Assembly: GCF_900215325.1 (NCBI RefSeq)
Contig: NZ_OCMS01000006.1
Span: 1-64,000, forward strand
Direction of reading: 5' to 3'
Source of the DNA: Fibrobacter sp. UWB16
GTDB lineage: Bacteria > Fibrobacterota > Fibrobacteria > Fibrobacterales > Fibrobacteraceae
Length of the DNA: 64,000 bases
In this document: in pieces, positions 8,280-63,190 of the stretch
Numbering within the stretch: the stretch's first letter is position 1
How the letters are laid out: the number at the start of each line of letters is the position of its first letter
Made by a program: the position numbers and the translations under genes
The notes under the pieces: generated by a model
Database searches by the model: none
The model's input: the letters and a program-made list of their open reading frames with translations, nothing else
Told to the model about the DNA's origin: nothing

Positions 8280-9416
8280 ATGAAAAAGAAGAATGTCATC
8301 AATCTGATTCGCTATTACGCCGAGAAAAACGATCCCGCTTTCCGCGAGGAGGCATACGAAATTGCTCGGGATTTTGACGCTAGCGGCGATTTTCAGCTTT
8401 CGGAATACATCATGGCCCTTATGTCCAGCGCGAACGCCTTTGTGCCGCAAATGCACGAAGACCAGATGACTTTTTTCCGCAAGATCGCACCTTCGCACGA
8501 TTCTTTGCCGCTCCCCACGCCTATTGAAAAGGATGTCATCGGGATTATCAACGCCATCCAGCGGAATATGGGAATCAACAAGTTCCTTTTCCAGGGCGCA
8601 CCCGGGACGGGCAAGACCGAATCCGTACGGCAAATCGCCCGCATTCTAGAGCGCGACCTGTTCTGCGTCAATTTCGACACCATCATCGACAGCAAGCTCG
8701 GCCAAACACAAAAGAATATCGTCACACTGTTCGATAAAATCAATCACTTCACCTGCCCCGAGAACACAATTGTCTTGTTTGAAAAAATGGATATTATGGG
8801 TCAAGTGCAGCCCGCAATGTTAAAAGGTCTTGACAACCTCAAAGAACAAATTACCATTATCGCCACAACGAACCATTTCAAACATTTTGACAAGGCTCTT
8901 TCCCATCGTTTTGATTTAATCGTTGATTTCAACAGATACACGCAAGAAGACCTGCAAGAAATCGCAGAATCCATCCTAAACAACTTCCTCGATGATCTCA
9001 AAATTGCAGGCCGAAACCCACGCCTATTCCGAAAGATTCTCGGCTTGAACAAGAAGTTGCCCAGCCCCGCTGACCTGAGAAAAATCATCAAAGCAGACGT
9101 AACATTCAGCGAAGCAACCATTGAATGCGATTATCTCAAGAATATTTACAAGTCATTTGTCGGCAGCGCCCCCGATGACTTGCATAAACTGCAAACGCAG
9201 GGCTTCACCGTCCGCGAAATCGAAATACTCTCCGGCATTTCCAAAAGCCAAGTTTCACGAATCTTGAACGGCGACGGACAAACAAAAAACGCCTTCAAGG
9301 AACACCAGAAATGCCATTCCTTGAACGCAACCAATTTACTCTTTCACAAGCCCAAAAAGAAAATCAACCTCGCAGAAGTGTACCGCAAGGCTGAAGAAGA
9401 AATCGTGTGGAGGTAG
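8280..9416 (+). CDS. AAA+ ATPase with C-terminal HTH and degenerate Walker B
   Basis: The 378-residue protein has Walker A GAPGTGKT (residues 106-113), a Walker B position reading IVLFEK instead of hhhhDE (164-169), sensor 1 ATTN (195-198) and an arginine-finger segment SHRFD (208-212). Near residue 313 the sequence FTVREIEILSGISKSQVSRI forms a resolvase/sigma-like helix-turn-helix. In the related AAA+ family often found beside subtilisin-like proteases, the normal sequence here is FDEID followed by an Arg-rich insert. Both are altered or missing, and no protease gene is adjacent. ATP binding looks possible, while efficient hydrolysis is doubtful. A DNA-linked or defence role is only an inference from its position next to a restriction island. 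Confidence 0.75.
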   Translation: MKKKNVINLIRYYAEKNDPAFREEAYEIARDFDASGDFQLSEYIMALMSSANAFVPQMHEDQMTFFRKIAPSHDSLPLPTPIEKDVIGIINAIQRNMGINKFLFQGAPGTGKTESVRQIARILERDLFCVNFDTIIDSKLGQTQKNIVTLFDKINHFTCPENTIVLFEKMDIMGQVQPAMLKGLDNLKEQITIIATTNHFKHFDKALSHRFDLIVDFNRYTQEDLQEIAESILNNFLDDLKIAGRNPRLFRKILGLNKKLPSPADLRKIIKADVTFSEATIECDYLKNIYKSFVGSAPDDLHKLQTQGFTVREIEILSGISKSQVSRILNGDGQTKNAFKEHQKCHSLNATNLLFHKPKKKINLAEVYRKAEEEIVWR

Positions 9417-9499: not shown

Positions 9500-10252
9500 T
9501 TATTTTTCCGAAGACCACTTTCTTATCTTTTTCGAGACATCTCTTTTTAATTTACCTAAGGATGTTTTACTTATATCACAATCAATATCAGGGAATAATA
9601 ACCTTTGTATTACAAGAGCTTTTTCGAAGTCATTTTTTAAGGAATCATCCTTATCATCTAGAGACTTCATTTTTAGCATAGAACCAATCTCACTAAGTCG
9701 GTAACGGTTATTTATATATCCATTTTTTATTATTCGTTGCACAACATCTTTATGAAAACTATAGCGTTGTCGTATTTTTAAATCCCGAATAGAGTTTTTA
9801 GCTCTTGTATTACATGTATTACATTTAATTGAAAAATTATTTTTATCCATAATATTCCCAACACTCTTTATATCAACAATAAATTCAACAAGGGAATCAA
9901 AATCATCATATATCGGATGTAAATGAGTTTTTCTAGAAAAGGGAATTCGAAGTTTAATACGAGAATTACACTGCTGACAACAAGGAATAAGATTATCCCA
10001 AATAAGTTGTCGCCCTGTCGCAACCGATTTCATTTCAAAATGATCAAAATCTGGCCTGCATGTCAAATCTTCTTCTACTGTATACGCATAATTAATATTA
10101 CAATAAGGACAAATCCTAACATTATATAGAGAAGCAACTTCAAACGCATCTTTCCTATTTTGAGTTTGAGTAAAGACATCATAGCTACTATATTTACTTA
10201 AAATACGTTCTATTTTTTTTACGCATTCTTCTGAAATTTCTATTTTTTTCAT
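9500..10252 (-). CDS. HNH endonuclease, PtuB-like (Septu-type pair)
   Basis: The 250-residue protein has CPYCN (residues 48-52), DFDHF (68-72, with the catalytic-type His 71) and IPCCQQCNSRIK (89-100), a zinc-stabilised HNH nuclease core; a further CNTCN lies near residue 144. Its ATG overlaps the stop of the upstream ATPase by one base (TAATG), so translation is coupled. An AAA ATPase followed by a small HNH protein is the gene arrangement of the Septu anti-phage system (PtuA/PtuB). The DNA is very AT-rich compared with the surrounding chromosome. The nuclease call is strong; the Septu assignment rests on architecture alone. Confidence 0.8.
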   Translation of the reverse strand: MKKIEISEECVKKIERILSKYSSYDVFTQTQNRKDAFEVASLYNVRICPYCNINYAYTVEEDLTCRPDFDHFEMKSVATGRQLIWDNLIPCCQQCNSRIKLRIPFSRKTHLHPIYDDFDSLVEFIVDIKSVGNIMDKNNFSIKCNTCNTRAKNSIRDLKIRQRYSFHKDVVQRIIKNGYINNRYRLSEIGSMLKMKSLDDKDDSLKNDFEKALVIQRLLFPDIDCDISKTSLGKLKRDVSKKIRKWSSEK

Positions 10253-12435
10253 TAGGATTCTCGCTCTAATTTTTCAATTAACAGATGCTTCAGTATTGAA
10301 TCAGATACACCATCAATTATTTTTTTCACTTCAAGATATCTGACCGGCTTTTTTTTAAGCCCCTTAAATTCAGAAATCAACTTGTTCAATTTTCGCTCCG
10401 CATATTGGCCAACCGTATTCTTCATAAACATCGATTCATAAAACATTTCACCAATATTCCCTGCAAAAGTACTTTTCTTTGACAAATTGTAATTTGGCAC
10501 ACCATTTTCTTCCAAAAATAAAGTTCGGCCAGGTTGAATATCCGATAGAATAAAAGGCGAATGCGTAAGAATCATTACATTAAAAAAGCATTTCCAATCT
10601 TCTCCTTTAGCCTTGCCTCTTTTTTTATAATCATTTATAAAGGTTTCAAGCATAACCACCAATCTATTGATGAATTGACGTTGAAATTCTGGGTGAAAGC
10701 ACAATTCAACTTCATCAAAGATCAAATTTATATTATCGTACTTAATTCTATTATGAGGAACCGACAACAAATTGGATATATGATATGCATGAACAGACAA
10801 TGTTTGCAGCATCTGCGTTTCACCTGAGCTAATCTGACGATAATTTACATCTTTTTCAATAACAGAAGAATACTCGTCTTTTTTATCCATGTACAATTCA
10901 TATTCAAAAAAAGGAGGTGCTAGACAATCATTTAAGTCATCAACAGTTAAGCAATCTCTATTTTTCCCTGTTAAGAAAATGGAATTGTCCATAAAGTCAA
11001 ATCGAGCGAAAAAGGCATCCTCATCCCATGTATAAGACGTATCAAACACATTATTCGCTAATGCTAAAAAATTCACCGTGCGACGGATTTTTCTTGTTAT
11101 ATGGGAATTGTCTATTTTAATAAAATTAAGTAAATCTTTTAAACGGGATTCATCAATTTTAAAAGCATTTCGTGAGTAATCATATTCAATTATATCATTG
11201 TAGCTTTTAAATGACGAATAATTTCCAGTAATTTTTAAAATTTTCTGTTGCAAATAAATATAAGCTGTTTTTACAATTTCGTTATTCTCTACATAGTTCA
11301 ATCCAAATTCGCACAGTATCATTTGTAAAAAAGCATTATTTTTGCTAACAAAATACTTTTCAAATTCATTAAATACGTCTGTTGCGGAAGGGATTGTCGC
11401 AGCACTAAAAGCATCCTTCGCTGATTCGATTCTTTTACTCGTTTCTTCAGTGATTATTTTTTTTATCCAATTATCACATAAATCGTTAAATTTTAAATTA
11501 ATCCTAACGGGATTATACGTTACTTTCACTTTTTTAAATACATAAGGAAATAACACATTCTCTTTGTTTTTAGTATAAAAAATAAGCAAAGCGGTCAATC
11601 GATCCATTGATAAATTTAGTTCATTGTTCCATATTACCATACCATCGTTATCACGGAATGGATTTAAAACAACAGGTTTACAATACCCATCATTTTTATG
11701 AAAAATTGATTTAATCCAAGATTCCGTGGGGGACACAGCCTCCACTCTATTAACTATTGTATTACTACCATCACATTCATTTATTAAATCATAGTATGTA
11801 GAAAGATAGTTTTGATAAACAAATGATTGAATTGAATAGTTCGAAGCGATCGTATAAAAAAAATTTCCTAGACACCGTTTTCGTTTTTCATTGGTTGAAA
11901 GCCCACATTTGTACTCGTTAGTTAAAACCTTCTCATCTTTTGGATCAAAATAAAAAGAAATGTCATTAATACGATTACGAATTATAGCACTTTCATCTAG
12001 AATAGCTTCACCACTCAAAATAGACAAATACACTTCTTTATCCTTAATAGTCAACACATAATCCGAAGTCTGACGTGTATAGAATATTCTCACATACAAA
12101 TCAGCAAGATATAGAGCACTAGAATCTGTGTCCGCATTTTCTTTTCTTTCTATCATATAAGCAAAATTATTTGCAGCAGCGAACAACAAATCCATTAAAG
12201 TACTTTTGCCACACCCATTTTTACCAACAATAGCTTGAATATTAATCCCTTTCTCATAAAAGGATGATGACGATAAAAATTTCTTATTTTTCGTCAAATT
12301 ACTATTGTCGTTGTCCAGTTTGTAATAATCATTTAAAAGATACTTTCCTGCTTTCAAATTTTTATATAGAGAATGGTTCGCAATCCTATCTGCTTCTGGT
12401 AAAATCTCTATACAATTTATCATAAATTGTTCCAT
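10252..12435 (-). CDS. AAA/ABC-type ATPase, PtuA-like (Septu-type pair)
   Basis: The 727-residue protein has Walker A GKNGCGKST (residues 71-79), an ABC-type signature SSGE (about 536), Walker B NLIFDEVE (about 568-576) and a switch-histidine segment LTHSP (about 624). About 450 residues lie between Walker A and the signature, without obvious long heptads. This OLD/RecF-like layout matches PtuA ATPases that sense or bind phage-related signals and act with the HNH protein PtuB encoded next. The start is preceded by AAGGA. It follows the HNH gene at 12511 after a 75-base gap, the largest gap in the downstream half of the operon, so it may also have its own promoter. Confidence 0.8.
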   Translation of the reverse strand: MEQFMINCIEILPEADRIANHSLYKNLKAGKYLLNDYYKLDNDNSNLTKNKKFLSSSSFYEKGINIQAIVGKNGCGKSTLMDLLFAAANNFAYMIERKENADTDSSALYLADLYVRIFYTRQTSDYVLTIKDKEVYLSILSGEAILDESAIIRNRINDISFYFDPKDEKVLTNEYKCGLSTNEKRKRCLGNFFYTIASNYSIQSFVYQNYLSTYYDLINECDGSNTIVNRVEAVSPTESWIKSIFHKNDGYCKPVVLNPFRDNDGMVIWNNELNLSMDRLTALLIFYTKNKENVLFPYVFKKVKVTYNPVRINLKFNDLCDNWIKKIITEETSKRIESAKDAFSAATIPSATDVFNEFEKYFVSKNNAFLQMILCEFGLNYVENNEIVKTAYIYLQQKILKITGNYSSFKSYNDIIEYDYSRNAFKIDESRLKDLLNFIKIDNSHITRKIRRTVNFLALANNVFDTSYTWDEDAFFARFDFMDNSIFLTGKNRDCLTVDDLNDCLAPPFFEYELYMDKKDEYSSVIEKDVNYRQISSGETQMLQTLSVHAYHISNLLSVPHNRIKYDNINLIFDEVELCFHPEFQRQFINRLVVMLETFINDYKKRGKAKGEDWKCFFNVMILTHSPFILSDIQPGRTLFLEENGVPNYNLSKKSTFAGNIGEMFYESMFMKNTVGQYAERKLNKLISEFKGLKKKPVRYLEVKKIIDGVSDSILKHLLIEKLERES

Positions 12436-12510: not shown

Positions 12511-13743
12511 TCATTTCAATAACGAATTTTTCAAAATATAATTACACATCAATTTAAATTTCATAGAACCATATTCTTTTATCATTTCAGGATTAGATTG
12601 CATCACATCAATCATTTCATGGGGGTAAAACTTTACTTGCCCATCACCATCTATAAAATACTGTCTAAAATTATTTTCAATCAGATTATCATTTTCATCA
12701 AAATAGAATGAAAAATTATGATATAAATTAATTTTTCCAGTATCAGATGAATTTTTCAACAAATCAACAAACTCTACCATGCCACCGATATTTACTAAAT
12801 CGCTCAAACTAGAAACAACACTCTCTTTGCGTATTTTTTCATTGATGATACGACGGATTAATGAAAAATCGTCCTCGCCTTCTTTTCGCTGAGCCTTACA
12901 CTCTTCATAAGTTACTCCGAAAATAGTCAATAAAGCAGATATATGCTTTGGTTTAACATAGTGAAGATCTTCCACATAATGCTTTTCAGACAATGGAATT
13001 TTCTGGCATTTTTGTGCGTAAATCCTTAAAACCTTTTCAGATGATTCAAATTTTTCGGACAACAATACATAAAACTGGAATACATTAAATAAATCAACAT
13101 AACACCATAATTCCTTTCCATTGCTAAACAAAATCAAATTATGATACAGCTGGATTTCATCGCGAAATTCAATTTCAGAATCAACAATATTTAAAGGACA
13201 AAAAGGAACAACTAAATTTTTAAATTTGATTGAAGTTACATTAAAACCATTTTTTTCAACATTAACAAAATCTTTCAAAAAAACAGGATTTATGCCTGAG
13301 TGAACAGCAAAATTAAACGCGATTTTAGAAATTCCACTTTTAAAAACTTCATTCTGTAGATTAAAGTAGAATTGTTTTGGAACAATACCTTTAATCTTAG
13401 CAAGCCCACACTTCCGTTCCTGTTGCAATTTCGGAACAGAAATTATTTTACGACCTTTAAATTTCGCATCATAGAATCGTCCAGCATACATCACTTGACC
13501 ATCATAAGAAGATTCTGTTGACGATCTTTTAGGCAAATAGTCAATATTATTCGTTATAGGACTGAATATTTTTACAAAATCCTTATCGACAAATTTTTCT
13601 ACCGCAAGATTACATTCTGGACAACAAATATTCTCAGATTCCAAAATGCCCCCTATGGCATTCTGAATAACATGTTCACTGCTTTTAACAAAGATTTCTT
13701 TTTTGCAATAAACGCATCTCATATAGAGAATATTTGCACTCAC
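12511..13743 (-). CDS. HNH-type endonuclease (HNH_5-like) of the inserted three-gene cassette
   Basis: The 410-residue protein opens with a compact zinc/HNH motif: CVYC (residues 10-13), SSEHVIQNAIGG with Glu 23/His 24, and CPECN (41-45), the pattern of HNH_5 nucleases. The remaining 360 residues have no recognised domain. The annotated start is a GTG whose last bases form the TGA stop of the upstream ATPase (GTGA overlap); an ATG seven codons in (13722) is the alternative. The coupling suggests it works with the SMC-like ATPase. AT-rich composition marks it as part of the imported block. Nuclease activity is inferred from the motif only. Confidence 0.7.
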   Translation of the reverse strand: MSANILYMRCVYCKKEIFVKSSEHVIQNAIGGILESENICCPECNLAVEKFVDKDFVKIFSPITNNIDYLPKRSSTESSYDGQVMYAGRFYDAKFKGRKIISVPKLQQERKCGLAKIKGIVPKQFYFNLQNEVFKSGISKIAFNFAVHSGINPVFLKDFVNVEKNGFNVTSIKFKNLVVPFCPLNIVDSEIEFRDEIQLYHNLILFSNGKELWCYVDLFNVFQFYVLLSEKFESSEKVLRIYAQKCQKIPLSEKHYVEDLHYVKPKHISALLTIFGVTYEECKAQRKEGEDDFSLIRRIINEKIRKESVVSSLSDLVNIGGMVEFVDLLKNSSDTGKINLYHNFSFYFDENDNLIENNFRQYFIDGDGQVKFYPHEMIDVMQSNPEMIKEYGSMKFKLMCNYILKNSLLK

Positions 13744-15431
13744 TTTAAGTCAACATTTCCAACCTCTACAATTTCTTTAGAAACTGTCAGGTCATTTGTA
13801 GATTCAATCCATTTCGCTTTTTTTGAATCATACACAACAGAATATAAATCTAACACAGCTTTACCAAAATCCTCTGCTTCTGATTGCGATAATGACAAGC
13901 TCCATTCATTAAAATGACATCCAACAAGATTGCGCAAATACAACAAATCTTCCACTTTTTTAAAAGTATCTGCACAAGCCGTTTTCTTACATTCCTTATA
14001 AATGCCTGGCCACAAATCACCAATTGTGTAACGATCACCTTTTTTTCGATGGATTGATGTAGACAAAATTGCACTCAAATTTTCACATATATATTCCAAA
14101 AGAAAACCTGCAGAAGAGCATATATCAACAACATTTCCTGACGTTAAATCTCTTTTTAACTTATCATCAAACATATTTGTAGAGTTGACGAGAACAGGCC
14201 CTTCCGTAAAAGACCATTGTTTCATTTCTGACAATAACAATACATGCCCTTTTCTCTGAAATAACTGCTGTAGCTGTTCTTTCCACAAGCGATCATGGGT
14301 GGTCATAATAATTTGCCACCCCATAAATTTTTCTAAAATAAAAACCATAATACGATATCTAAATGCAGAATCGACACTTTGAAAAATATCATCAAGAACA
14401 AGAACCTTTGATTGGCCAAATTGGGCAGAATCATATGTAAATTCCAAATAAATCAATAAAGCCAATAAATCTTGATTAGCTTCCGAAAAAACATATTGCG
14501 GATTTAAAAACAACCCGTTCTTCAGTTTTACATTAATTGAAAGAGAAATTTCACTTTGGACGCCAATATCTAAAAAAATTTGTTCAATATGCTCCGTTCT
14601 TGTAGACAGTTTAAAAAAATCATTTGTCACATTTGTAGATATCTCTCTTAATCTTTTTCTTAACGGCGACAACCGTCGTCCATCGATAGAATTATTTCTA
14701 CAGGCACCAATTTCTTTCTTCACTTTTTTTATTTCTAACTCCATACATTGAGCATCTTTTACTAAAGGAAGAATATTCCTTGGGTACTTTTTAAAATTTG
14801 AAAAATAAGTATCATTATATTTCTTTTTATATTCTGATAGAAAATCATCCACTTTCAAGACGGAGTCTTTGTCAAGCTTAAAATAAGAACACAATGTTTT
14901 TAAATTCTTTGAGCGTTTGAAAGTTAACGTTTCATATTTTTTTCCCAAAGATAACAACTTCTGACTTTTTTCAGATTTTAAGGATGTATTATCAAATCCT
15001 AAAAAAATTTTTAATCGTTGAACAGCTTCAGTTGCCCAAAATGTTAAAATATCAGACCTTCTTAAAATAAACGGAGCTTTACCAAACTGAATTAATCTTG
15101 TCGATTCATTTACAAGTTTTCTATTTCCATAATCATTTGTTTCATATTTCAATCGAGCCACATTTTTTGATTCATCTGTTAATTCAACTGTAATTTCAGA
15201 ATTAACATCAAGATTTTCATATGATACAGAAGATGAAAGAATTCCCTTTAAATTAATCGAACCCAGCAAACACAACTCTATTGCGTCTACAACTGAAGAC
15301 TTTCCACTCCCATTTTCACCATAGATTAGATGGCTACAGGCTACATTTTTTTTGTGGAAATCTACACGAAGTTCCTTCGTAATCCCACGGAAATGTTGTA
15401 TCGTTATATTCTTTATTTTTAAATCTGACAT
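13740..15431 (-). CDS. SMC/RecF-like ATPase with C-terminal HEPN-like domain
   Basis: The ATG at 15431 is chosen because GGAG precedes it. The 563-residue protein has Walker A YGENGSGKSS (about 37-46), a short coiled region (about 165-280), a signature-like SEANQDLLALL, Walker B VLVLDDIFQSVD (about 343-354) and a switch histidine TTHD (about 379). The last 150 residues are helical and contain LRNLVGCHFNEW, an R-N-x4-H motif (about residues 500-506) of the kind found in HEPN ribonucleases. An ABC-type ATPase followed by a HEPN domain, encoded inside a type I restriction operon, is the architecture of the anticodon nuclease PrrC and of RloC. Overall similarity to these was not tested. It lies six bases (15438-15443) after the GHKL gene. 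Confidence 0.7.
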   Translation of the reverse strand: MSDLKIKNITIQHFRGITKELRVDFHKKNVACSHLIYGENGSGKSSVVDAIELCLLGSINLKGILSSSVSYENLDVNSEITVELTDESKNVARLKYETNDYGNRKLVNESTRLIQFGKAPFILRRSDILTFWATEAVQRLKIFLGFDNTSLKSEKSQKLLSLGKKYETLTFKRSKNLKTLCSYFKLDKDSVLKVDDFLSEYKKKYNDTYFSNFKKYPRNILPLVKDAQCMELEIKKVKKEIGACRNNSIDGRRLSPLRKRLREISTNVTNDFFKLSTRTEHIEQIFLDIGVQSEISLSINVKLKNGLFLNPQYVFSEANQDLLALLIYLEFTYDSAQFGQSKVLVLDDIFQSVDSAFRYRIMVFILEKFMGWQIIMTTHDRLWKEQLQQLFQRKGHVLLLSEMKQWSFTEGPVLVNSTNMFDDKLKRDLTSGNVVDICSSAGFLLEYICENLSAILSTSIHRKKGDRYTIGDLWPGIYKECKKTACADTFKKVEDLLYLRNLVGCHFNEWSLSLSQSEAEDFGKAVLDLYSVVYDSKKAKWIESTNDLTVSKEIVEVGNVDLK

Positions 15432-15443
15432 ATTCACTCCAAA

Positions 15444-16823
15444 CTACACATATCCATCAACGAATTCAATGGCATCTCTAACTTTTGCATTTGCGCCCTC
15501 AATAAACAAAGTACATTTTCTTCTTCTAGCTTCGACAATCAACCGTTTTAATAGAGAATGAGCGAAACTTTGCGTAGCAATAGAAACGCCTGTAAAATTT
15601 AGACAAAGATTCTGTTTATTTCTTAATATTGGGAGCAACAATTCATCTACACTCTGTTTCGCCTTAGTGACATTTTCAGCACAAGCTTTAACTAAAAATT
15701 TCTTACATTCACCCATAGAATTTGTATCAAAATTAATAACTGGTATTCGATGTTTTTTCTTTTGAGAACGTTCTTCCGCCTTCGCATAAATACGTTTCAG
15801 CATTTCATTATAATCAGCCAACGTACAATTTACTGGAATCTCAAAAACAACAAATGTTCCATCAAACGGAGCATCTTTGATTGCAGTGGTATTATTCTCA
15901 TCCCCATTACCTTTTATTGATAAAAGTTTTCCGCTAGAACAAATAGCCATATAACCGCCCAACTCTTTTGCTATCTCAGAAATCATAAAAAGACCAAGAC
16001 CAGCATTGACATCCGTTCCACCAATTCGTTCTTCTGGAAACGCTCCCGAAAAATGAGGCTTTACAGATGCTAACAAAGCTCTTTCAGGGTCATCGATTTT
16101 ATGAAATGTCTGTAATGATTTCAATATTCCAATACCATTATCAACAACCGTTATTTGAACACAGGGTTTAGAATCTCCAAAATAGCCTGAACGCATTTTC
16201 TGTGCAATCAAAAGTCCGCCATCAGGGTCCTCACTATGTTGAATAACATTTCTCATCAATTCATTAAGTACATAGTAAATTGTATCTTTTAAATCAGTTG
16301 CATCGGTATATTGTAATTCATCGGCATCAACACTTTCAATTAGTAATTTTGATATTTCAGAAGCTTTTCGTTCGTAATTTGAACCTTTTTCTATAGACGA
16401 TAATTTTACAGTACGTTTGTACTCTGTATAAACACAATTTTGTTCAATTCCACAATAGGGTCCTAAACCCATTGCATTTGCAAATCTAGAAGGATTTTTG
16501 TCGCCTGAAATAATTTTAGGCCCTTTCTTTTTTCTCAAAAGTGCCGCTATCACCGTAATCAACCAAGGTTGTAAAACTATAAAATCGTCTAGGCGAATAA
16601 CAGATTCAGAATTTATCCATGCCATAATCTCAGGGATAGATTCCAAATCAGAAGTCATAATTTTAGCATCCTCTTTTTTGGATTTTAGTAGAGAATTTTT
16701 GATAGGATCTTTTTTTATTTCCTCTATTTTGGCTTTTAATGCGTGATCAAAACTTGTTCCTCCTAGAACAGCATTATCACGACGTTTTTTTGCAAAATCT
16801 CTAAATTCTTTAGATAATTTCAT
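15444..16823 (-). CDS. GHKL ATPase with C-terminal STAS-like (DUF4325-type) domain
   Basis: The 459-residue protein carries a Bergerat-fold ATPase in its middle: N box NELMRNVIQHS (residues 187-197), G1 VDNGIGI (227-233) and G2 GLGLFMI (275-281). The C-terminal 90 residues include LNFTGVSIATQSFAHSLL, typical of STAS-like DUF4325 domains that accompany ATPase partners. A strand-rich N-terminal part (about 60-120) may be a second STAS-like unit. No histidine-kinase phosphoacceptor domain is seen, so it is not an ordinary sensor kinase. It starts 12 bases after the hsdS stop and is followed within six bases by the SMC/HEPN ATPase, so it belongs to the restriction operon. Its role may be sensing or switching; this is inference. 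Confidence 0.75.
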   Translation of the reverse strand: MKLSKEFRDFAKKRRDNAVLGGTSFDHALKAKIEEIKKDPIKNSLLKSKKEDAKIMTSDLESIPEIMAWINSESVIRLDDFIVLQPWLITVIAALLRKKKGPKIISGDKNPSRFANAMGLGPYCGIEQNCVYTEYKRTVKLSSIEKGSNYERKASEISKLLIESVDADELQYTDATDLKDTIYYVLNELMRNVIQHSEDPDGGLLIAQKMRSGYFGDSKPCVQITVVDNGIGILKSLQTFHKIDDPERALLASVKPHFSGAFPEERIGGTDVNAGLGLFMISEIAKELGGYMAICSSGKLLSIKGNGDENNTTAIKDAPFDGTFVVFEIPVNCTLADYNEMLKRIYAKAEERSQKKKHRIPVINFDTNSMGECKKFLVKACAENVTKAKQSVDELLLPILRNKQNLCLNFTGVSIATQSFAHSLLKRLIVEARRRKCTLFIEGANAKVRDAIEFVDGYV

Positions 16824-16835
16824 TTTGACAACCCT

Positions 16836-18092
16836 CTATTCCACCTCAACTTGTCCGTTCATCAATAGTGGCAAAAGTTTGTCTCTTAGTTTTGTGAGGC
16901 GATAGATTTTTTGTTTATTCTTCGTGATAAGATTTAGAATGCTATCAAATTTTTCTGATAGTCGCGGATTATTCGGCACAAGGATATTAATCTGCTTCAT
17001 ATCCTTATCACTCAAATGTCCAACAGTTGACCCTTTCGCCTGATCTTCCTTGAACTTGATAAACGGGGCAATTTGATGATAAATTATCATAACAGACAAC
17101 TCTTTTTGTCGAATACGAGTGATTCGCTGATTTACGTAATCATCATTTCTAGGCCAAAAGCTCATATGGAAGTAGCCGTCCATACCAATTAAAAGGTCAT
17201 TCACTTTCGTCCTATACTTATCATCAACGGTTTCTGTTGTTTTGGCAGAAATTGTATTGTCCTTTATGTCACGAATGCGAATTACAGGATATGGTTTCGT
17301 TGATGTATCCAGATTCTCTTCATCAAACGGCTCTGTCGCATACGGAAATCCGTATAAGACATCAGAGCAATCAAAAAGGCTTTTCACTCCCCACCCCTCT
17401 GGTATTTCCCTTTTGAGGGTGGGGTTGTAGGTCATGGGGCCGCCGGTGGTTTTGTAGGGGCGGCCGTTTTTGTCGGGGAAGTCGTATTGGACGAACCAGT
17501 AGTCGTATAGGCGTTTTGCCATTGCTTCGAGTTTCTGGTTCATCTTTTTGTTCAGGGCGATTTTGTCGTCTAATGCGGAAAGAACGGACACTATTTTTTT
17601 CTGATTATTTTCATCAACATCTGGCAGAAGTACATTACGAATCGCTTCCATTGTAATATTCTTTTGTATTCCACCTTGTTCATCTTTCAACAAAACAGTT
17701 TGTCCACGTGGTGACTTTAAATAGTAATAAATAAATTCTTCAGAATATCCACAATTAGGATTCAATTCGATTTTTGCAATGTTACTTCCTAGCAAGGCAT
17801 CATACGAAGCATCAAAAACAGCAAGGTCGCCAATGGTTCCAACATAAGGCAATACAAGACATTTTCTTTTCAAAAAACTTCTTGGCAATTGATCAGCAAT
17901 ACTCTTGGGAATATACCAATCGAAGTTTTTATCAATTCTGCCATCTCTTACAGTTTTACCAATAAACAATGGAATAAAAGAATCATCTTTTCTTTCGTGG
18001 GTACAATTACCCTGAATATATTTAGTATGTTCAAAGCCAGCAAGCTTTGTAACAAAAGCAATATCACCTATAGTTTTATTCGTCCATTCCAT
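16836..18092 (-). CDS. hsdS: Type I restriction enzyme specificity subunit HsdS
   Basis: The 418-residue protein has the two-repeat layout of HsdS. A first target-recognition domain is followed by the conserved helical spacer (NQKKIVSVLSALDDKIALNKKMNQKLE), then a second recognition domain and a second helical segment ending KLRDKLLPLLMNGQVEVE. It directs the HsdM/HsdR complex to its bipartite DNA site. ATG 18092 is chosen; an upstream TTG at 18101 is possible. The central spacer DNA (about 17390-17580) is clearly GC-richer than both recognition domains, a mosaic that suggests the recognition domains were exchanged. It follows a small gene rather than hsdM directly. Confidence 0.93.
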   Translation of the reverse strand: MEWTNKTIGDIAFVTKLAGFEHTKYIQGNCTHERKDDSFIPLFIGKTVRDGRIDKNFDWYIPKSIADQLPRSFLKRKCLVLPYVGTIGDLAVFDASYDALLGSNIAKIELNPNCGYSEEFIYYYLKSPRGQTVLLKDEQGGIQKNITMEAIRNVLLPDVDENNQKKIVSVLSALDDKIALNKKMNQKLEAMAKRLYDYWFVQYDFPDKNGRPYKTTGGPMTYNPTLKREIPEGWGVKSLFDCSDVLYGFPYATEPFDEENLDTSTKPYPVIRIRDIKDNTISAKTTETVDDKYRTKVNDLLIGMDGYFHMSFWPRNDDYVNQRITRIRQKELSVMIIYHQIAPFIKFKEDQAKGSTVGHLSDKDMKQINILVPNNPRLSEKFDSILNLITKNKQKIYRLTKLRDKLLPLLMNGQVEVE

Positions 18093-18172
18093 TTTTCTCA
18101 AACCTGCATTTAGATTGCTTCGTCTCTATCAATCCTCGCAATGACTAGTCAAACCACCTTCTTCTTATTAAA

Positions 18173-18484
18173 TCAACCTCTTCCACGTAGTATTCTTTCC
18201 GAGCGAATAATCCTATACTCTTCTTCTATACGATCTTTCATAGTTCCTTCAGTAATAGGAAATGGAGAGGCATGGGCTCTTCTTTCTGCTTCTTGCCAAT
18301 CAAGCTGTTCTTGACGTTTTTCGCGTTTACGCTTTTCTTCTGCTAATTTCTCTTTTTCTTCTCTTCTTTTTTCTGCTTTTTCCTCATATTCCAATTGCAT
18401 TTTAGCAATATCTTTAGAAACTCTAATAGCCCTTATTGACACAATAAGAGACGCTAAACTAATGACAATTGCGATTATTTCCAT
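18173..18484 (-). CDS. Small membrane-anchored coiled-coil protein in the hsd operon
   Basis: The 103-residue protein starts with one hydrophobic segment (IIAIVISLASLIVSIRAI, about residues 3-20). A highly charged helical stretch rich in Lys, Glu and Arg follows (about 30-70), likely a coiled coil, with a short basic C-terminus ending ILRGRG. It lies between hsdM and hsdS on the same strand, separated from hsdM by two dispersed palindromes. No family is recognised. Because it sits inside the operon it may be cargo or an accessory factor; the sequence gives no catalytic motif. Confidence 0.6.
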   Translation of the reverse strand: MEIIAIVISLASLIVSIRAIRVSKDIAKMQLEYEEKAEKRREEKEKLAEEKRKREKRQEQLDWQEAERRAHASPFPITEGTMKDRIEEEYRIIRSERILRGRG

Positions 18485-18498
18485 AATAGTCCTTTACT

Positions 18499-18574
18499 AG
18501 ATCCTTCGACTCCACTTTGTTGCGCTCAGAATGACACTTGCTCTTTAGATCCTATCGCTACGCTCCAGGATGAC
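18499..18574. repeat. Two dispersed ATGAC-tailed palindromes
   Basis: Two elements of the 'GATCC...CAG(A/G)ATGAC' subtype lie at 18499-18535 and 18547-18574, both in the gap between hsdM and the small coiled-coil gene. They resemble 35487-35515 and 36246-36277. Confidence 0.65.
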
Positions 18575-18580
18575 ACAGCC

Positions 18581-20230
18581 TTAATTGAATTTCAAGTTGC
18601 TCAACTGTTTCTGGATTTCCTTTTCGAGTTTGTGGCTTTCGGCGAACATGGCGGCGAGTTCTTCAGTGTCGGCTTTCATTTGGGCGTTGAATTCGTCGAC
18701 GGTTATGTCCACGTAGTCTATCTTGATGTCGAAATACTGGCCGGCGCTCAGGCTGTAGCCTTTTTCCTTGACTTCGCTGTAGGTCACGACTACGCTGAAG
18801 TCTTCGACGGCTTTGGCCTTGCGGAAGGTGGTCACGATTTTCTCGATTTCGTCGTCTTCGAGGCGGACTTTCTTGAGGCCGTTCGCGTCCTTGTATTCCT
18901 TGCCGAGTTTGCTTGCGTCAACGAGGGTGACCTTGTCGTTGTCGGTCTTTTTGCGGGTCTTGTCGAAAAAGAGCACGCTCACGTTGGTGCCGGTGTTCGC
19001 GAATACGTTGCTCGGCATGCTGACCACGCCATAGACGATGTGTTCGTCAACGACGCGTTCGAGGATTTTGTGTTCGATGCCGGATTTCGCGGTGATGAAC
19101 CCGGTGGGGATGACGATGGCGCCCTTGCCGCCTGCCTTGATGCTGTTCACCACGTGCTGGATAAAGCAGGTGTAAATGGCCATGCTCTCCTTTTTCTTGT
19201 TCGGGACTTTCGGCACGCCTGCCCAGAAGCGGGCATTCCATTTCTTCTCGATGTCGTCGCGGGTGTCGCTGAAGTCCATCTTGAAGGGCGGATTGCTCAC
19301 AACGTAATCGAACTGCTTGAGGTTCTTGCCGTCGTCGCTCTTGTGGTAGGGTTCCAGGAGGGTGTCGCCCTGCACGGCGTGATCGAGGCTCGAAACGAGT
19401 CCGTTCAAGAGCAGGTTCAGCTTGAGCATTTTGTTACTGCGCTGCGAGATGTCCTGCGCAAAGATGGTGCAGCGGTCTTCGCCAATCTGGTGGCTGAGCG
19501 CCATAAGCAATGTGCCGGTACCTGCACTGGGGTCGTAACATTCTACGTTGTGCAAGTCGGCGTTGTCGCCCACCAAGAGGCGCGCCATGATCTTCGCGAT
19601 GGCCTTGGGCGTGTAATATTCGGCGTACTTGCCGCCGCCTGCGGTGTTGTAGTCCTTGAGCAGGTATTCAAAGATGTCCGAGAAAAAGTCGTAGTGTTCG
19701 GCGAAGGCGTCTTCGAAGCTGAAGTTCACGAGTTTATCGACAAGGGCGCGGGCGAAGTTTGCACGCTGGGCATCGTCGGTCACGAAGATGGTGAGTTTTT
19801 CGAAGATGGGAATTTTCGTTTCTTGCGCGGTCTTGGTGTAGAATACATCCAAGTTGTCCTTCGCGATGGCGACCATGGTCTCGTCAAAAATCACATCGAA
19901 ATCGCCCTTGGCCTGCTTGTTCCAGAGGTTTGCAATCAGGTAGTCGGGCTTGAACACCGGGACTTCGGGCGGCAAGAAGAGGCTCACCTTTTCGCGGTCG
20001 GCCTTGGAGAGTTTTGCGTATTCCTCTTCCCACTTGTCGGATTTTTTGAGGGCCTTCAGGCAAGGGTCGTTAATTTTCTTGAGTTCGTAGCCGAACTTGT
20101 CGGCCATAAACTTGTACAGAAACACCTGTGTGATAATCTTGTATTCGTTGCCGTCATTGCCCATGCCGTACGTCTGGCAAGTGGCCTTGAGAGAGTCAAT
20201 AAGGGCAATGGTCTTGTCTTTGATGTTCAT
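18581..20230 (-). CDS. hsdM: Type I restriction-modification DNA methyltransferase HsdM
   Basis: The 549-residue enzyme has the helical N-terminal HsdM domain, the Ser/Tyr hinge YYTPKAIAKIMARLL, the AdoMet motif DPSAGTGT (residues 233-240) and the N6-adenine catalytic motif NPPF (313-316). It methylates adenine in the host's recognition sites together with HsdS and forms the core of the restriction complex. Its ATG directly abuts the hsdR stop (TAA-ATG), so the two are translationally coupled. Unlike the downstream accessory genes, composition here is host-like and GC-richer. A long open frame on the opposite strand (18632-20476) is a codon-bias shadow. Confidence 0.96.
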   Translation of the reverse strand: MNIKDKTIALIDSLKATCQTYGMGNDGNEYKIITQVFLYKFMADKFGYELKKINDPCLKALKKSDKWEEEYAKLSKADREKVSLFLPPEVPVFKPDYLIANLWNKQAKGDFDVIFDETMVAIAKDNLDVFYTKTAQETKIPIFEKLTIFVTDDAQRANFARALVDKLVNFSFEDAFAEHYDFFSDIFEYLLKDYNTAGGGKYAEYYTPKAIAKIMARLLVGDNADLHNVECYDPSAGTGTLLMALSHQIGEDRCTIFAQDISQRSNKMLKLNLLLNGLVSSLDHAVQGDTLLEPYHKSDDGKNLKQFDYVVSNPPFKMDFSDTRDDIEKKWNARFWAGVPKVPNKKKESMAIYTCFIQHVVNSIKAGGKGAIVIPTGFITAKSGIEHKILERVVDEHIVYGVVSMPSNVFANTGTNVSVLFFDKTRKKTDNDKVTLVDASKLGKEYKDANGLKKVRLEDDEIEKIVTTFRKAKAVEDFSVVVTYSEVKEKGYSLSAGQYFDIKIDYVDITVDEFNAQMKADTEELAAMFAESHKLEKEIQKQLSNLKFN

Positions 20231-23200
20231 TTAGTTTCCGTAGTAGGCGTTATACTGGTTAATATACTGCTTGGCGATGCGCTGTTGGATAAACAGGTAA
20301 TCGGGCATTTCGGGCTTGATTTGCGGGAAGTGCGCAAGTCCGTCTGCGATTTCTTTCATCACGGTCTTGCCGAAGTAAGCGTCCTGCTTCAGGATGTCGT
20401 TGCGGTCGAAAACCTTCGCGTCAATCGTTCCCTTGATAGTCAAAAGAGCCTGCACAATTTCTTCGTCGAACTTTGAGATAATCGGGGCCTGATGCTTAGG
20501 TTCGCGAGCCTTGTTCTCTTCGCGAATGCGCTTGTGGACGTAGGCGAATTTCGTGTCGCCGTTGTACTTGCGCAAGAGGGCGTCGTTTGATTTGCGGAGT
20601 TCTTCAAGGCGTTTCAGAATGTCGTTCATCGCCTGGTTCTGCTCGTTATAAACGGCAAGGTTTTCCGGAGTAAAGCCGTGCTTGTCAAAAATGCGTTTGA
20701 ACTCCTGTTCCAATTCAACAAACACAGGGTCTTCGTGGTCGAAGTTATCCAGAAATCCGCGGAGTGCGCGCTTGTATTTTTCACGCAGTTCCGTGCCATT
20801 GTCGATGATTTTCAGTTCTTCAGTGCCGATGCAGCTAAAGTTGAACTCGATGTTCATCATGGCTTCGTTCACGGCAAACTGAGTCGCTTCGCTATTGGTC
20901 CATGCCTCTTTCTGGTTAATCATCGCAATGCGGTGATTCACTTCCGAAAGCATGAGCGGCAACTTTTCGATGTTCAGCTTTTCAAAGTCCTTTTTAAGGG
21001 CATCGTCACCGAAGGTGCGCACAAGGTTCATCGCATCTTTCGCGAGTTCCAAAGCCTTGCGCAGTTCAATCAAAACCTTCTTGTCTTCAAGGCTAGAAAT
21101 TTCGGTAGAGAAAACTTCCGCATTGTCGGTGGTGTAACTGAACAAAGCCTGGCGAGCCACCTTCATGTGGTTGATAAGGGCGTCCTTATCTTCCATGACT
21201 TGGTTGTACATGTCGGGCAAGTTATCGTCTGGGTCAGCATCTGCATCGTTGTAGCGGTTCAGTTCCTGCAAATACGCGGCATTGGTCTCGTCGAAATTCT
21301 TCTTGATGTCGGCAAAGTCGATCAAGAATCCGCGTTTCATGTTCTTGTACGGGCGATTCACGCGCGTAATTGCCTGCAACAAATTATGATCTTCGATTTT
21401 GCGACCGAAATACAATCGCTTGAGGCGCGGTGCATCAAAGCCCGTCAGCAACATGTTGTAAACAATCAGAATATCAATCGTGTAGTTCTTCTTGAAATCG
21501 TTGATAATCTGCTTGCGGGTTTCCTTGTCGTCGCTATCGAAGAGAATCAGGCCCGCTTTCAAGTTGATTTTCTGGATGCGGTTTTCATTGAGTTCGTCCT
21601 GAATCTCATTGAAGAACTTGTACAAGTTTCGTGCCTGCTCCGAAGATTCAGCAATAATCATGCCGCCAAGGTCGTTGTCGCCCTGCATGGCACGGAACTT
21701 CGCCAAATCGTTGATGATGTAGCGGAGCAACGCCTTAACGTATGTGGGGTGCCGAATAATCATGTCCTTCGAGACAGAACCCTTCTCCACCAGTTTCTGC
21801 ACGCTTTCGTAAGCATCGTTCAGTTTTTTGCGGTAACTGGTTTCGATATCTTCGCGGATAATCTTTAGCGTATAGCCGTCTTGAATGGAACGGTCATAAT
21901 AATACGTGTGGAAGTAATCGCCAAAGACCTTGCAGCTCGCCTTTTCGCTCCCGATGAGCGGCGTGCCGGTAAGTGCAATCTTGATGGCGTTCTTGTCGGC
22001 ATTGAAGAGGTTCGAAAGGAAACATCCGCCCGATTTGTAGCCGCGATGCGCTTCGTCCATAATGAACACGCGTTGCAAATTCGTGGCGTAATTCGGGATT
22101 TCCACTTTCTCGGTGTCATTTTCAAACTTCTGGATGTTCACCACGGTAATTTCATCGACACCGGCGTTGCCCTGCAAGGCCTGCTGCGTGCGGAACTGTT
22201 CCATGAGTTCCGTGCGGGAATTTGCCGTTGTCACCTTGAGGCCGCGGTTGCTCAATTCTTCGGTTGCCTGCTCCAGCAAATCCAGGCGGTCCACAATAAA
22301 GTAGAATTTGGCAACCTTGTTCTGCTTGGCGTAATAGTCCTTGAGGACTTTGCTCAAGTGGAAAGAAAGCGCCGTCTTGCCCGAACCCTGCGTATGCCAC
22401 ACAATGCCGGATGTCGCACCCGCTGCCAGTTTTTCACGGATAATCATGGCCGCAAAAAATTGCTGGTAACGCATGATGTGCTTTTCGTGGCGGCTCTCGA
22501 TTTGGCCATCCTTCTCTTTTTCGACATGCAAGTAAGCGATGCCGTACTTGAGCAAAAAGAGCAAACGCTCCGGGCTCACCATAGAAGTAAGCACGCGGTT
22601 CGTGGGCGTGTTGATATCGAGATTCGTCTTGTATTCCGGATTCTCTTTCAAGACCGGAACATTGAAATCCATCAGCACTCTCTTTTCGAGATCCGCAGGA
22701 ATCGGCAAATAAGGATAATTGGCGTGGAACGGCGCAATGGCCGCACGCTTAGGGTTCTCTTCCCTGAAGCAGTTGAAACGCGCTTCGTTTTTCGCAGCTG
22801 TGCAATAGAATACGCCTTCAATCGGGACAACACCGCCCTTGGCATCGTACTCCATGTTGTTGGAGAAAATCATCAACTGCGTGATGTTGATAAAATGGCG
22901 GAACTTTTTCTTCGGGAAGCGTTCGTCATTCATCCGCTTGCTTTCGGCCACCATGCCGCCTACGTTGTTCGGCTTCTTGACCTCGATAAACACGAGCGGA
23001 AGCCCATTGATGAACAACGTAATATCGGGGCGAAAACTTTCATCGCCATTCTTGCAAGTGAATTCCGCCGTACAATGATAAGTGTTATTTTCCGGATGTT
23101 CAAAATCAATCAAGCGAAGCGGAGAATAGCTAGTAAGTCGCTTGTAGAACTGCTGACCCAAATCATCGTCATCCAGTTCCTTTTGAATATCCGAAAGAAC

Positions 23201-23407
23201 GCTCTGCGCAGAAACAGTTGCAGCCGGATTCAGCTTCTTGAACTGTTCCGCAAAAATGTCCACAAGGATGTTCGTCTCTGGGTCGTAGGGAATCGCCGGC
23301 GTTGCGCCAGACTCTGAAATTTTTCCCAAATACGTATAGCCAATGCGAGCCAAATGCTGAATCGCAGTCAGTTGAACGCGCGTCGCTTCCGTAAAAAGAT
23401 TAGGCAT
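20231..23407 (-). CDS. hsdR: Type I restriction enzyme endonuclease/translocase HsdR
   Basis: The 1058-residue subunit has the nuclease motif PD (residues 127-128) with FIEVKK (140-145), Walker A TQGSGKT (near 345), the DEAH box MDEAHRG, and helicase motifs such as ALTGTPLI, VYNMLLTGFDAPRL and QAITRVNRPY, in the order of superfamily 2 translocases. HsdR pulls DNA and cleaves unmodified targets once bound to HsdM/HsdS. Length is normal. It is the first gene of the operon; the 200 bases upstream are AT-rich and contain the divergent promoter of the 54-residue gene. No sign of disruption is seen, so restriction is probably functional. Confidence 0.96.
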   Translation of the reverse strand: MPNLFTEATRVQLTAIQHLARIGYTYLGKISESGATPAIPYDPETNILVDIFAEQFKKLNPAATVSAQSVLSDIQKELDDDDLGQQFYKRLTSYSPLRLIDFEHPENNTYHCTAEFTCKNGDESFRPDITLFINGLPLVFIEVKKPNNVGGMVAESKRMNDERFPKKKFRHFINITQLMIFSNNMEYDAKGGVVPIEGVFYCTAAKNEARFNCFREENPKRAAIAPFHANYPYLPIPADLEKRVLMDFNVPVLKENPEYKTNLDINTPTNRVLTSMVSPERLLFLLKYGIAYLHVEKEKDGQIESRHEKHIMRYQQFFAAMIIREKLAAGATSGIVWHTQGSGKTALSFHLSKVLKDYYAKQNKVAKFYFIVDRLDLLEQATEELSNRGLKVTTANSRTELMEQFRTQQALQGNAGVDEITVVNIQKFENDTEKVEIPNYATNLQRVFIMDEAHRGYKSGGCFLSNLFNADKNAIKIALTGTPLIGSEKASCKVFGDYFHTYYYDRSIQDGYTLKIIREDIETSYRKKLNDAYESVQKLVEKGSVSKDMIIRHPTYVKALLRYIINDLAKFRAMQGDNDLGGMIIAESSEQARNLYKFFNEIQDELNENRIQKINLKAGLILFDSDDKETRKQIINDFKKNYTIDILIVYNMLLTGFDAPRLKRLYFGRKIEDHNLLQAITRVNRPYKNMKRGFLIDFADIKKNFDETNAAYLQELNRYNDADADPDDNLPDMYNQVMEDKDALINHMKVARQALFSYTTDNAEVFSTEISSLEDKKVLIELRKALELAKDAMNLVRTFGDDALKKDFEKLNIEKLPLMLSEVNHRIAMINQKEAWTNSEATQFAVNEAMMNIEFNFSCIGTEELKIIDNGTELREKYKRALRGFLDNFDHEDPVFVELEQEFKRIFDKHGFTPENLAVYNEQNQAMNDILKRLEELRKSNDALLRKYNGDTKFAYVHKRIREENKAREPKHQAPIISKFDEEIVQALLTIKGTIDAKVFDRNDILKQDAYFGKTVMKEIADGLAHFPQIKPEMPDYLFIQQRIAKQYINQYNAYYGN

Positions 23408-61360: not shown

Positions 61361-62089
61361 TCACACCTTTGGCATTGCTTGGTAAATTTTCCCATTTAAA
61401 AGTTTTCCATTTTCCTTCTTGGAACGGCGAACACCATCAACGCCCCATGCACCCCACTGTTTAAAGAAGAACGCAACATTCTGTTCCGAAGCTTGTTTCT
61501 GGATATTTTCAACCCATGCTTTTTGCATCAGCCTTGCCTTAGGGCCGCTTTCGCCTCCAACAATAACCCAATGGATTCCATCAAGGTTTATTTCACCAAG
61601 GTCACTCAACAAGGGCTCGCAAGAAAGAAAGCGAACTTTGGCATTTATTTTACGCAATACTGCTATACGACTTTTACGAACAGCATTTTCAACAGTTACT
61701 CCAATCCAAGCATTATCCGGCACACTTCGAGTTTTAAAAAACTCTTCCATTCGTTCCGCTCTTTTCGTGAGAATTTGGAAACGGTGGTTCGTGGCCTTCT
61801 TGATTGTTTTGAAAACCTTATCAATAAAAGTAAAAGGGACTTTTTCATTGAACAAGTCGCTCATGGAGCATACAAAGATATTGCTGGGATAACGCCAATG
61901 AAGAGGTTCATCTAAGGATTCTTCGTGTACTGTAACATCAAAGCCGTTTTTGTACTTATCAAGCCCCATATTCTGCAAACGCAAAGACATGGTAGCCGCA
62001 TAACAATTTGCACAACCTTCAGATAAACGGTCACACCCTGTAACCGGATTCCATGTCTGATCAGTCCATTCAATCTTCGTAGTCTTCAT
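61361..62089 (-). CDS. DUF5131 (phage Gp37/Gp68-type) three-cysteine protein
   Basis: The 242-residue protein begins TKIEWTDQTWNPVTGCDRLSEGCANCYA, a motif with three cysteines arranged as C-x5-C-x2-C, the DUF5131 signature. Later features are NIFVCSMSDLFNE, WIGVTVEN, SCEPLLSDLG and WVIVGGESGPKARLM. The fold resembles radical-SAM-like barrels, but whether it binds a cluster is unknown. Its ATG follows the stop of the TcmP gene directly (TAG-ATG). TcmP-type partners are named for occurring next to such three-Cys proteins. The pair is mobile and occurs in phages and islands. No terminator is evident after it. Confidence 0.85.
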   Translation of the reverse strand: MKTTKIEWTDQTWNPVTGCDRLSEGCANCYAATMSLRLQNMGLDKYKNGFDVTVHEESLDEPLHWRYPSNIFVCSMSDLFNEKVPFTFIDKVFKTIKKATNHRFQILTKRAERMEEFFKTRSVPDNAWIGVTVENAVRKSRIAVLRKINAKVRFLSCEPLLSDLGEINLDGIHWVIVGGESGPKARLMQKAWVENIQKQASEQNVAFFFKQWGAWGVDGVRRSKKENGKLLNGKIYQAMPKV

Positions 62090-63190
62090 CTAGATAGCCT
62101 TGACATATATTCTTTCCATTTTATCATCATCAAGATAAAATGCATTCTGTCTAATTTTTTTAGATTCATCGTATGCACAAACTTGAATTTTCCCTTGTTC
62201 GGCAAATTTTCTCAATGCCGCATTACCATGCTTAGGCATGGAACCATGTTCAAAGCAAAAATCTCGAATCTGTATATTTGTTTTTGAACCTGTTTTTAAG
62301 TAGGATATCAATTTATCTTCTAGACGATCCCTAAAGAATGATTCAAGAAATGATTCTTGCCCTTGGTTTCTCTTATCATATCCAGTTCCTTCTTCCTTGT
62401 CTATTTCCCATTTCGCTTCAACAAATTTTTCCAACCCTTTACGGTTACTAGAAAAATAAATCAAACAATTATGTCCCTTACCAGCATTATCTTGGATAAT
62501 GAAACTATCTACAAAAACCTTCAATTTGTTTCGAAGGGTATCTAAAATATTTCTAAGAAAGGCTACATCGCTTTTTATTGTATATAGTTCCGGTACAGAG
62601 ATGAATTCTTCTAAAAAAGTCTTTACGGCATTGGTCTCACCTTCATTACTTTTAAATCGGTAAATATGAGATAAGGGTAAAAAAAGCAAAAGTTCCGTAT
62701 CCCCATCACTTAAAATTTTCTTTATATCATTAAGATGTATACTCTTATAACCAAAAGGGTCTATAAAGAAAAACCTTTTGAAATAATTATGCGTTTTATG
62801 ATTTTCAATTATTAGAGGAAGAAAATCGGAATAATCCTGATTCTGAACATTTATCTTTACCCAACTTGTCTTTTGAATTTTGTGTTCTGCAACTAAAGCA
62901 TTCAATTTTTTGAAGTTTTCGGGGTTCATCTCATTAAAGCAAATCTTCACACGCAATCCATCCAAGAATGTTTGCGAAAGATAGTCCATCAATATCTTTG
63001 GACTACCAGGATTTCCATTTTCATCTTCGCCAGGGCCAGCAAACAAATCAGCTATATAAATTCGATCTTTTTTATTCCAGGGCAGTTTATACGCTTTACT
63101 TAATACCTTGAGATATCTTTTGATATACGCTTTATATATACTAAGCTTGGCTTTGGTCGAATCATTGAAACCTTCAAAAAATTCTGGCAT
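62090..63190 (-). CDS. tcmP: Three-Cys-motif partner protein (TcmP-like)
   Basis: The 366-residue protein starts MPEFFEGFNDSTKAKLSIYK and has IYIADLFAGPGEDENGNPGSP, a methyltransferase-like glycine loop, then FFIDPFGYKSI and ELLLFLPLSHIYRF. The C-terminal part (RNQGQESFLESFFRDRLED, then a winged-helix-like tail) fits the tcm_partner family. The GPG-like loop suggests AdoMet binding, but the family's activity is unknown. It follows the HNH gene after 3 bases and directly precedes the DUF5131 gene. The gene is AT-rich compared with neighbouring host genes, as expected for a mobile cassette. Confidence 0.85.
   Translation of the reverse strand: MPEFFEGFNDSTKAKLSIYKAYIKRYLKVLSKAYKLPWNKKDRIYIADLFAGPGEDENGNPGSPKILMDYLSQTFLDGLRVKICFNEMNPENFKKLNALVAEHKIQKTSWVKINVQNQDYSDFLPLIIENHKTHNYFKRFFFIDPFGYKSIHLNDIKKILSDGDTELLLFLPLSHIYRFKSNEGETNAVKTFLEEFISVPELYTIKSDVAFLRNILDTLRNKLKVFVDSFIIQDNAGKGHNCLIYFSSNRKGLEKFVEAKWEIDKEEGTGYDKRNQGQESFLESFFRDRLEDKLISYLKTGSKTNIQIRDFCFEHGSMPKHGNAALRKFAEQGKIQVCAYDESKKIRQNAFYLDDDKMERIYVKAI

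Follow-up and report, generated by a model that had tools for sequence, protein, structure and literature searches.

What are the three AT-rich genes that lie directly behind the specificity gene of a type I restriction locus in the rumen-type bacterium Fibrobacter sp. UWB16, and do they form a defence system? The window, i.e. the whole stretch of 64 000 nucleotides that was analysed, contains the following features around these genes:

20231-23407, minus strand: hsdR, restriction subunit of the type I system, 1058 aa (open reading frame; 94-95% nucleotide identity in genomes G147 and G145).
18581-20230, minus strand: hsdM, modification subunit, 549 aa, which forms the conserved scaffold of the locus (18 genomes with aa identities of 84-99%).
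18497-18573, minus strand: short dispersed repeats (TCATCCTGGAGCG..., TCATTCTGAGCG...) immediately 3' of hsdM, bordering the variable block.
18173-18484, minus strand: small coiled ORF, 103 aa, in the hsdM/hsdS interval.
16836-18101, minus strand: hsdS, specificity subunit, 421 aa (Methylase_S, 4e-21).
15444-16823, minus strand: predicted sensor kinase with the layout STAS-GHKL-STAS, 459 aa.
16389-16649, minus strand: its N-terminal STAS-like domain, aa ~59-145 (alignment; named by analogy to CapK/VapK, PMC13373217).
15819-16301, minus strand: its GHKL ATPase core, aa ~175-335 (HATPase_c, 5.1e-7; invariant alignment columns).
15447-15746, minus strand: its possible C-terminal STAS/DUF4325 domain, aa ~360-459 (DUF4325 E 0.0024, STAS E 0.011, both below the Pfam cut-off).
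13740-15437, minus strand: SMC/Rad50-like ATPase, short and hook-less, 565 aa (SMC_N 8.8e-12, AAA_21 1.1e-11).
13914-13934, minus strand: HEPN-like motif R502-N503-x4-H508 at the C-terminus of the SMC protein.
12511-13743, minus strand: HNH_5 nuclease-like protein, 410 aa (HNH_5, 4.7e-10).
10252-12435, minus strand: AAA/OLD-like ATPase, 727 aa, of the PDC-M62A or 'restriction system-associated AAA' family (PADLOC 3.7e-26; TIGR04435 4.4e-18, below its cut-off).
9500-10252, minus strand: HNH nuclease partner, 250 aa, PDC-M62B (PADLOC 2.7e-36).
8280-9416, plus strand: IetA-like AAA ATPase, right flank of the slot (PADLOC IetA 2.9e-28).

The genes hsdR, hsdM and hsdS adjoin on one strand, and the GHKL, SMC-like and HNH_5 reading frames follow intact on the same strand, with the spacing that a preliminary description of the locus had given: 12 bp between hsdS and the GHKL gene, 6 bp between the GHKL and SMC genes, and a GTGA stop/start overlap between the SMC and HNH_5 genes. 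That description had seen a three-gene cassette embedded in the restriction operon, and both its position and its extent have to be corrected. The trio sits 3' of a complete hsdR-hsdM-hsdS set, and the same-strand run extends by two genes, the PDC-M62A ATPase and the PDC-M62B HNH protein (12435-9500, overlapping by 1 base), so that the cassette comprises at least five genes. The AT-richness claimed for the trio was borne out (GC content of 0.30-0.34 versus 0.49 for hsdR and 0.53 for hsdM), but hsdS is also AT-rich (0.38) and is part of the variable block. No protease partner was seen adjoining the IetA-like gene on the far side of this block.

The region 3' of hsdM was then taken from 31 genomes, in 18 of which the slot was readable. 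Behind an hsdM that is 84-99% identical (aa) across these 18 genomes, nucleotide homology to the window ends in most relatives at the hsdM 3' end (18588-18606). Within hsdS, only a central stretch (17381-17603) is conserved in most relatives, sometimes together with the end of the gene near 16843, and matches in the cargo region amount to two short stretches of ~71-78% identity in the M62A ATPase gene (G004, G144). Homology otherwise resumes only in the right flank, at the IetA-like gene (9427 in G001; 9415 in G112; 9253-9270 in G004, G012, G150 and G166). From this pattern it follows that the replaceable block consists of hsdS together with every gene that lies behind it. The 18 genomes carry 14 distinct cargos, listed here with their PADLOC-DB matches, which are assignments at the family level and do not imply complete systems:

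Window and G147: the cassette described here.
G004 and G144: M62.
G012: PDC-S19 (2e-127) and HEC-06 (GmrSD-like).
G132 and G006: Avs2 (E 0) and M62.
G150: ThsB TIR of Thoeris (2e-66).
G159: LmuA (5e-21).
G001: PDC-S31 (6e-12).
G112: PDC-S15 (2e-25).
G027: SduA of Shedu (4e-30).
G020: M62 (the slot of G009 begins like this cargo, and its contig then ends).
G031: M62.
G149: PDC-S20 (1e-93).
G166: weak match only.
G019: Aga-like (1e-31) and Lit-like (1e-12).

Defence families were thus matched at E ≤ 1e-10 by 12 of the 13 alternative cargos, and M62 genes occur in five of the 14. As a control, ten proteins flanking the locus in the window were searched in the same database: two weak generic AAA matches were obtained, both with one protein, and nothing with the nine others. 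The cassette therefore occupies a slot in which each related species has a different antiviral module, and very probably represents a new phage-defence cassette that can be swapped for others; we give a probability of roughly 85% to its being one allele of the antiviral cargo carried by an exchangeable slot 3' of a type I restriction-modification scaffold. Accordingly, the link to restriction proposed in the preliminary description is real, and it reflects a slot that accepts many different defence modules.

Most members of the slot carry short dispersed repeats 3' of hsdM and 5' of hsdS. These elements (TCATTCTGAGCG, TCATTGCGAGGA, TCATCCTGGAGCG) cluster between the two genes (18110-18573 in the window; loci L107-L120), and in the window three of five copies fall within the ~460-bp hsdM-hsdS gap, the third of them at 18133-18144, shortly 5' of hsdS. 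As a pattern, they could mark the border of exchange. The scaffold itself appears to be mobile: in other genera of the family, hsdM is still 99% (G159, L113) and 97% (G166, L120) identical, and this near-identity across genera suggests that the restriction-modification scaffold was itself recently transferred. Unrelated defence modules inside or beside hsd genes are known from DarTG2 with RptR (PMC12255303) and from TgvAB (PMC11411939), and the site within type I loci has been termed a potential recombination hotspot (PMC12255303; PMC11411939). The present locus differs from these in that the module is appended after hsdS, in the order R-M-S, and in that 14 alternative cargos stand behind nearly the same hsdM. 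A nearly constant hsdRM scaffold with 14 cargos offers a natural series in which to study how restriction and back-up abortive systems combine and exchange, and the uncharacterised neighbours in the slot (e.g. the cargos of G166, G112, G019 and G149) provide a ready list for discovery through guilt by location.

The trio itself has a narrow distribution. Among 168 genomes of the phylum, it was found only in the window's own genome and in one other, G147 (Fibrobacter succinogenes MAG RUG14562), where the order is hsdR, hsdM, a Schlafen-type gene, hsdS, GHKL, SMC, HNH_5, PDC-M62A and PDC-M62B; the Schlafen gene (AlbA_2) stands in place of the 103-aa coiled ORF. Between the two, identity reaches 98% for the GHKL protein, 92% for SMC, 92% for HNH_5, 63% for M62A and 99% for M62B. 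Reading frames and gene order of the trio are retained, and dN/dS values of 0.085 (GHKL), 0.119 (SMC) and 0.149 (HNH_5) indicate that the genes are kept by purifying selection. Decaying foreign genes devoid of present function would agree with the AT-richness and the narrow distribution, but such intact frames and dN/dS values of 0.085-0.149 between two species make this explanation highly improbable.

Distant relatives of each protein were found singly: for SMC in Streptomyces (33% identity over the full length), for HNH_5 on Klebsiella plasmids and in two genomes of the phylum (G064, G054), and for the STAS-GHKL protein on viral contigs. The trio is thus a modular assembly, and neither the obligate unit implied by the preliminary description, which had itself named solitary occurrence as refuting evidence, nor a widespread conserved three-gene system is supported. 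Single-protein queries gave no match on viral contigs, where alignment queries did; the phage collection gave no SMC or HNH match; 396 genomes of Actinomycetota gave no additional SMC relative, and none was present in the nine viral records that carry relatives of HNH_5 or STAS-GHKL. A genome-wide scan with the SMC alignment, which used two patterns only and hence has low sensitivity, matched in G147 and Streptomyces only. The Streptomyces relative (S. kronopolitis, L024 1819-4230) has a ThiF/JAB gene set in its neighbourhood, which may be a conjugation operon of the Bub or CBASS type.

Given such solitary relatives, and since other cargos of the slot are likewise stacks of unrelated defence genes, one might regard STAS-GHKL, SMC-HEPN ATPase and HNH_5 as three independent defence genes, each acting alone, that a gene-capture slot has brought together by chance. 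We consider this unlikely: the junctions are tight, the order is the same in G147, and the 92% identity of both SMC and HNH_5 suggests joint inheritance.

The first protein of the trio was read as a GHKL sensor with a STAS-like C-terminus in the preliminary description. The GHKL assignment holds, while the C-terminal domain matches DUF4325 and STAS below the Pfam cut-off. In an alignment of 18 sequences, of which 16 are proteins of ~330-350 aa from viral contigs and the other two come from the window and G147, the N-box residues E188 and N192, D228xGxG, N273xGxGL (with GLGL at 275-278) and G322-T323 are invariant. The N-terminal STAS-like part is common to all 18 and also aligns with other STAS-GHKL homologues including the kinase of G101; it has no Pfam match of its own. 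Pro86 within it is invariant, and in 17 of 18 homologues the next residue is aromatic, a putative counterpart of CapK W68 and VapK F54. Within this set, the extra C-terminal STAS/DUF4325 part is restricted to the proteins of the window and G147, where a TQSFAHS motif is kept, with Ser419 as a candidate phospho-acceptor. When DUF4325 proteins and fusions are aligned, the serine column of the VapS protein of G101 is occupied by Gln418 in the window protein, and Ser419 lies one place later. Given this and the sub-threshold matches of the C-terminal STAS, Ser419 is at most a putative phospho-acceptor. The AlphaFold model is weak (mean pLDDT 61) and does not decide how the domains are arranged, and a PDB fold search placed GHKL ATPase folds on top without significant E-values, confirming nothing beyond GHKL. 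Judged by these alignments, the protein reads as a kinase of the CapK/VapK type fused to a VapS-like STAS substrate.

One PADLOC profile pointed elsewhere: aa 35-430 match positions 5-361 of the 1750 of DrmA (2.4e-11), but DISARM was rejected, as the cassette has neither the helicase part nor any other DISARM gene. The DrmA profile may itself include a kinase fusion, perhaps a sensor of the STAS-GHKL-STAS type fused to the DISARM helicase elsewhere.

In the systems to which the kinase compares, a STAS-GHKL kinase phosphorylates a STAS partner and thereby frees DNA or a toxin; CapK is activated by single-stranded DNA (ssDNA) and phosphorylates CapS, and VapKSC protects against phage (PMC13373217). 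The cassette resembles VapKSC in that a STAS-GHKL kinase, a candidate STAS domain of the DUF4325 type and a predicted nuclease are encoded together in an operon that has defence genes as neighbours. It differs in that kinase and STAS are fused in a single chain and in that its effectors are an SMC-HEPN-like ATPase and an HNH_5 protein instead of the PIN-domain VapC, with no PIN match in the cassette; the split kinase-STAS-PIN version is found elsewhere in the phylum (L072). With CapK and CapS, it shares a GHKL-STAS kinase module located directly behind a restriction-modification system (as are 88 of 443 capKS; PMC13373217) and before effector genes, but a STAS-wHTH repressor is lacking, the next gene being that of the SMC protein.

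One could nevertheless suppose a transcriptional switch, in which the GHKL-STAS protein regulates expression of the downstream or hsd genes in the manner of CapK/CapS instead of acting on effector proteins directly. CapKS does control downstream immune operons, often after restriction-modification systems (PMC13373217), and the N-terminal helical extension (aa 1-47) could, in the low-confidence structure model, be an HTH as in CapK. However, no STAS-wHTH partner is encoded, no wHTH follows the C-terminal STAS, which ends the chain at aa 459, and junctions of 12 bp, 6 bp and an overlap within one operon leave no room for a promoter ahead of the effector genes. We regard this alternative as distinctly unlikely. 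The cassette is not a member of VapKSC or CapKS, whose defining partner genes are absent; it probably works like them.

Relatives of the kinase module occur in other arrangements. A DUF4325 search of the phylum found STAS-GHKL-DUF4325 fusions in G121 and G125 (L070, L071), in G101 an operon of separate kinase, STAS and PIN genes that matches VapKSC (L072 5037-6788), and kinase-STAS-membrane-protein triples in G121, G076 and G057, the one in G076 lying between hsdR and hsdM; matches in G057:C32 and G133 were weak and judged to be due to chance. A STAS-GHKL gene lies directly behind hsdS in G167, free of SMC and HNH genes, another ~15 bp behind the BREX gene brxL on a viral contig (L036 2144-5337), and a kinase-STAS pair was found in a prophage-like region of Streptococcus. 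Within one phylum, then, the recently described ssDNA-activated kinase module seems to be associated with type I restriction in no fewer than three divergent forms.

Of the predicted effectors, the SMC protein has its ATPase motifs preserved: Walker A (GENGSGKS), Walker B (VLVLDD), the signature region (SE-x2-QD) and the H-loop (TTHD). It has no CPxC hook; the hook is present in long relatives of ~800 aa, one of which is located in a BREX-5 locus. The C-terminal R-N-x4-H motif announced in the preliminary description is present as R502 NLVGC H508, conforming to the R-x4-6-H of HEPN domains, and no HEPN Pfam family was matched. Its RNxVGxHxN form is kept in Streptomyces and, among Bacteroidota relatives, in Fibrella and Hymenobacter, and the arginine is lost in the long forms of Bradyrhizobium and Halorhabdus; since some relatives thus lack it, RNase activity is only presumed. 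The HNH_5 protein has C10, C13, E23-H24, C41 and C44, invariant across five homologues.

An SMC/RecF-type ATPase head with an HNH partner recalls Lamassu, Septu and Rad50-like systems. In PADLOC-DB, the SMC protein matched LmuB, AbiLi and mad3 best, the LmuB match (1.3e-15) lying mainly in aa 6-115 and the PtuA match (1e-9) being local as well, and it lacks the zinc hook. Lamassu was rejected, as LmuA-like and LmuC genes are absent from the cassette, and so was Septu, as the HNH_5 protein barely matches PtuB (E 0.18). The PDC-M62/TIGR04435 family is matched by the two genes behind the trio, and the SMC and HNH_5 proteins are not members. The finding that PADLOC-DB holds no named three-gene match agrees with the preliminary description; Menshen (Nsn) is, we presume, a candidate for such a match.

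SMC and HNH_5 have single-gene relatives elsewhere and may therefore act without the kinase. Along these lines, they could constitute an effective two-gene defence unit similar to Septu or PDC-M62, the GHKL protein being only an accessory of restriction. ATPase-HNH pairs are a common design in defence, one such pair lies directly downstream of the trio, and the gene of G167 shows that a STAS-GHKL protein can follow hsdS on its own. By its best-matching profile, the SMC protein is nevertheless not a Septu-type ATPase, and with its marginal PtuB score the HNH_5 protein does not fit either, so that we hold this explanation to be quite unlikely.

We tentatively prefer, at somewhat short of even odds, that a single-chain kinase-STAS sensor gates the SMC-HEPN-like ATPase and the HNH effector; the domains are observed, and the gating is modelled on CapKS and VapKSC. 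What the analysis shows is the order of the genes and their domains, the integrity of the ATPase and nuclease motifs, the action of selection, the link to a restriction-modification slot, and that kinase-STAS pairs exist in both split and fused form. In the resting state, the STAS end of the kinase would keep both the ATPase and the HNH protein switched off. The GHKL domain would respond to single-stranded DNA that arises through restriction or phage replication, the STAS domain would be phosphorylated and the effectors released, and the infected cell would be halted by cleavage of RNA and/or DNA, a second line of defence after restriction. In this scheme ssDNA sensing, phosphorylation, the identity of the inhibited partner and the nuclease activities are all inferred. 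The full version, a single-chain switch that senses the DNA damage of the neighbouring restriction enzyme, frees a hook-less SMC-HEPN RNase and an HNH DNase simultaneously, and is one of many second-line plug-in modules exchanged with hsdS among Fibrobacter species on a shared type I scaffold, is doubtful. The preliminary model of a GHKL sensor over an effector pair linked to restriction fits the CapK/CapS and VapKSC switches (PMC13373217), without its obligate unit. No description of an SMC/HNH effector pair was found in that paper, and the cassette adds a candidate kinase-gated defence system whose effectors are not described for CapKS or VapKSC.

A further gene pair in the window (61361-63190), encoding proteins of 366 and 242 aa, has starts near-identical to those of the last two genes of the G132/G006 cargo (L109, L111), which suggests a second defence locus at the window end.
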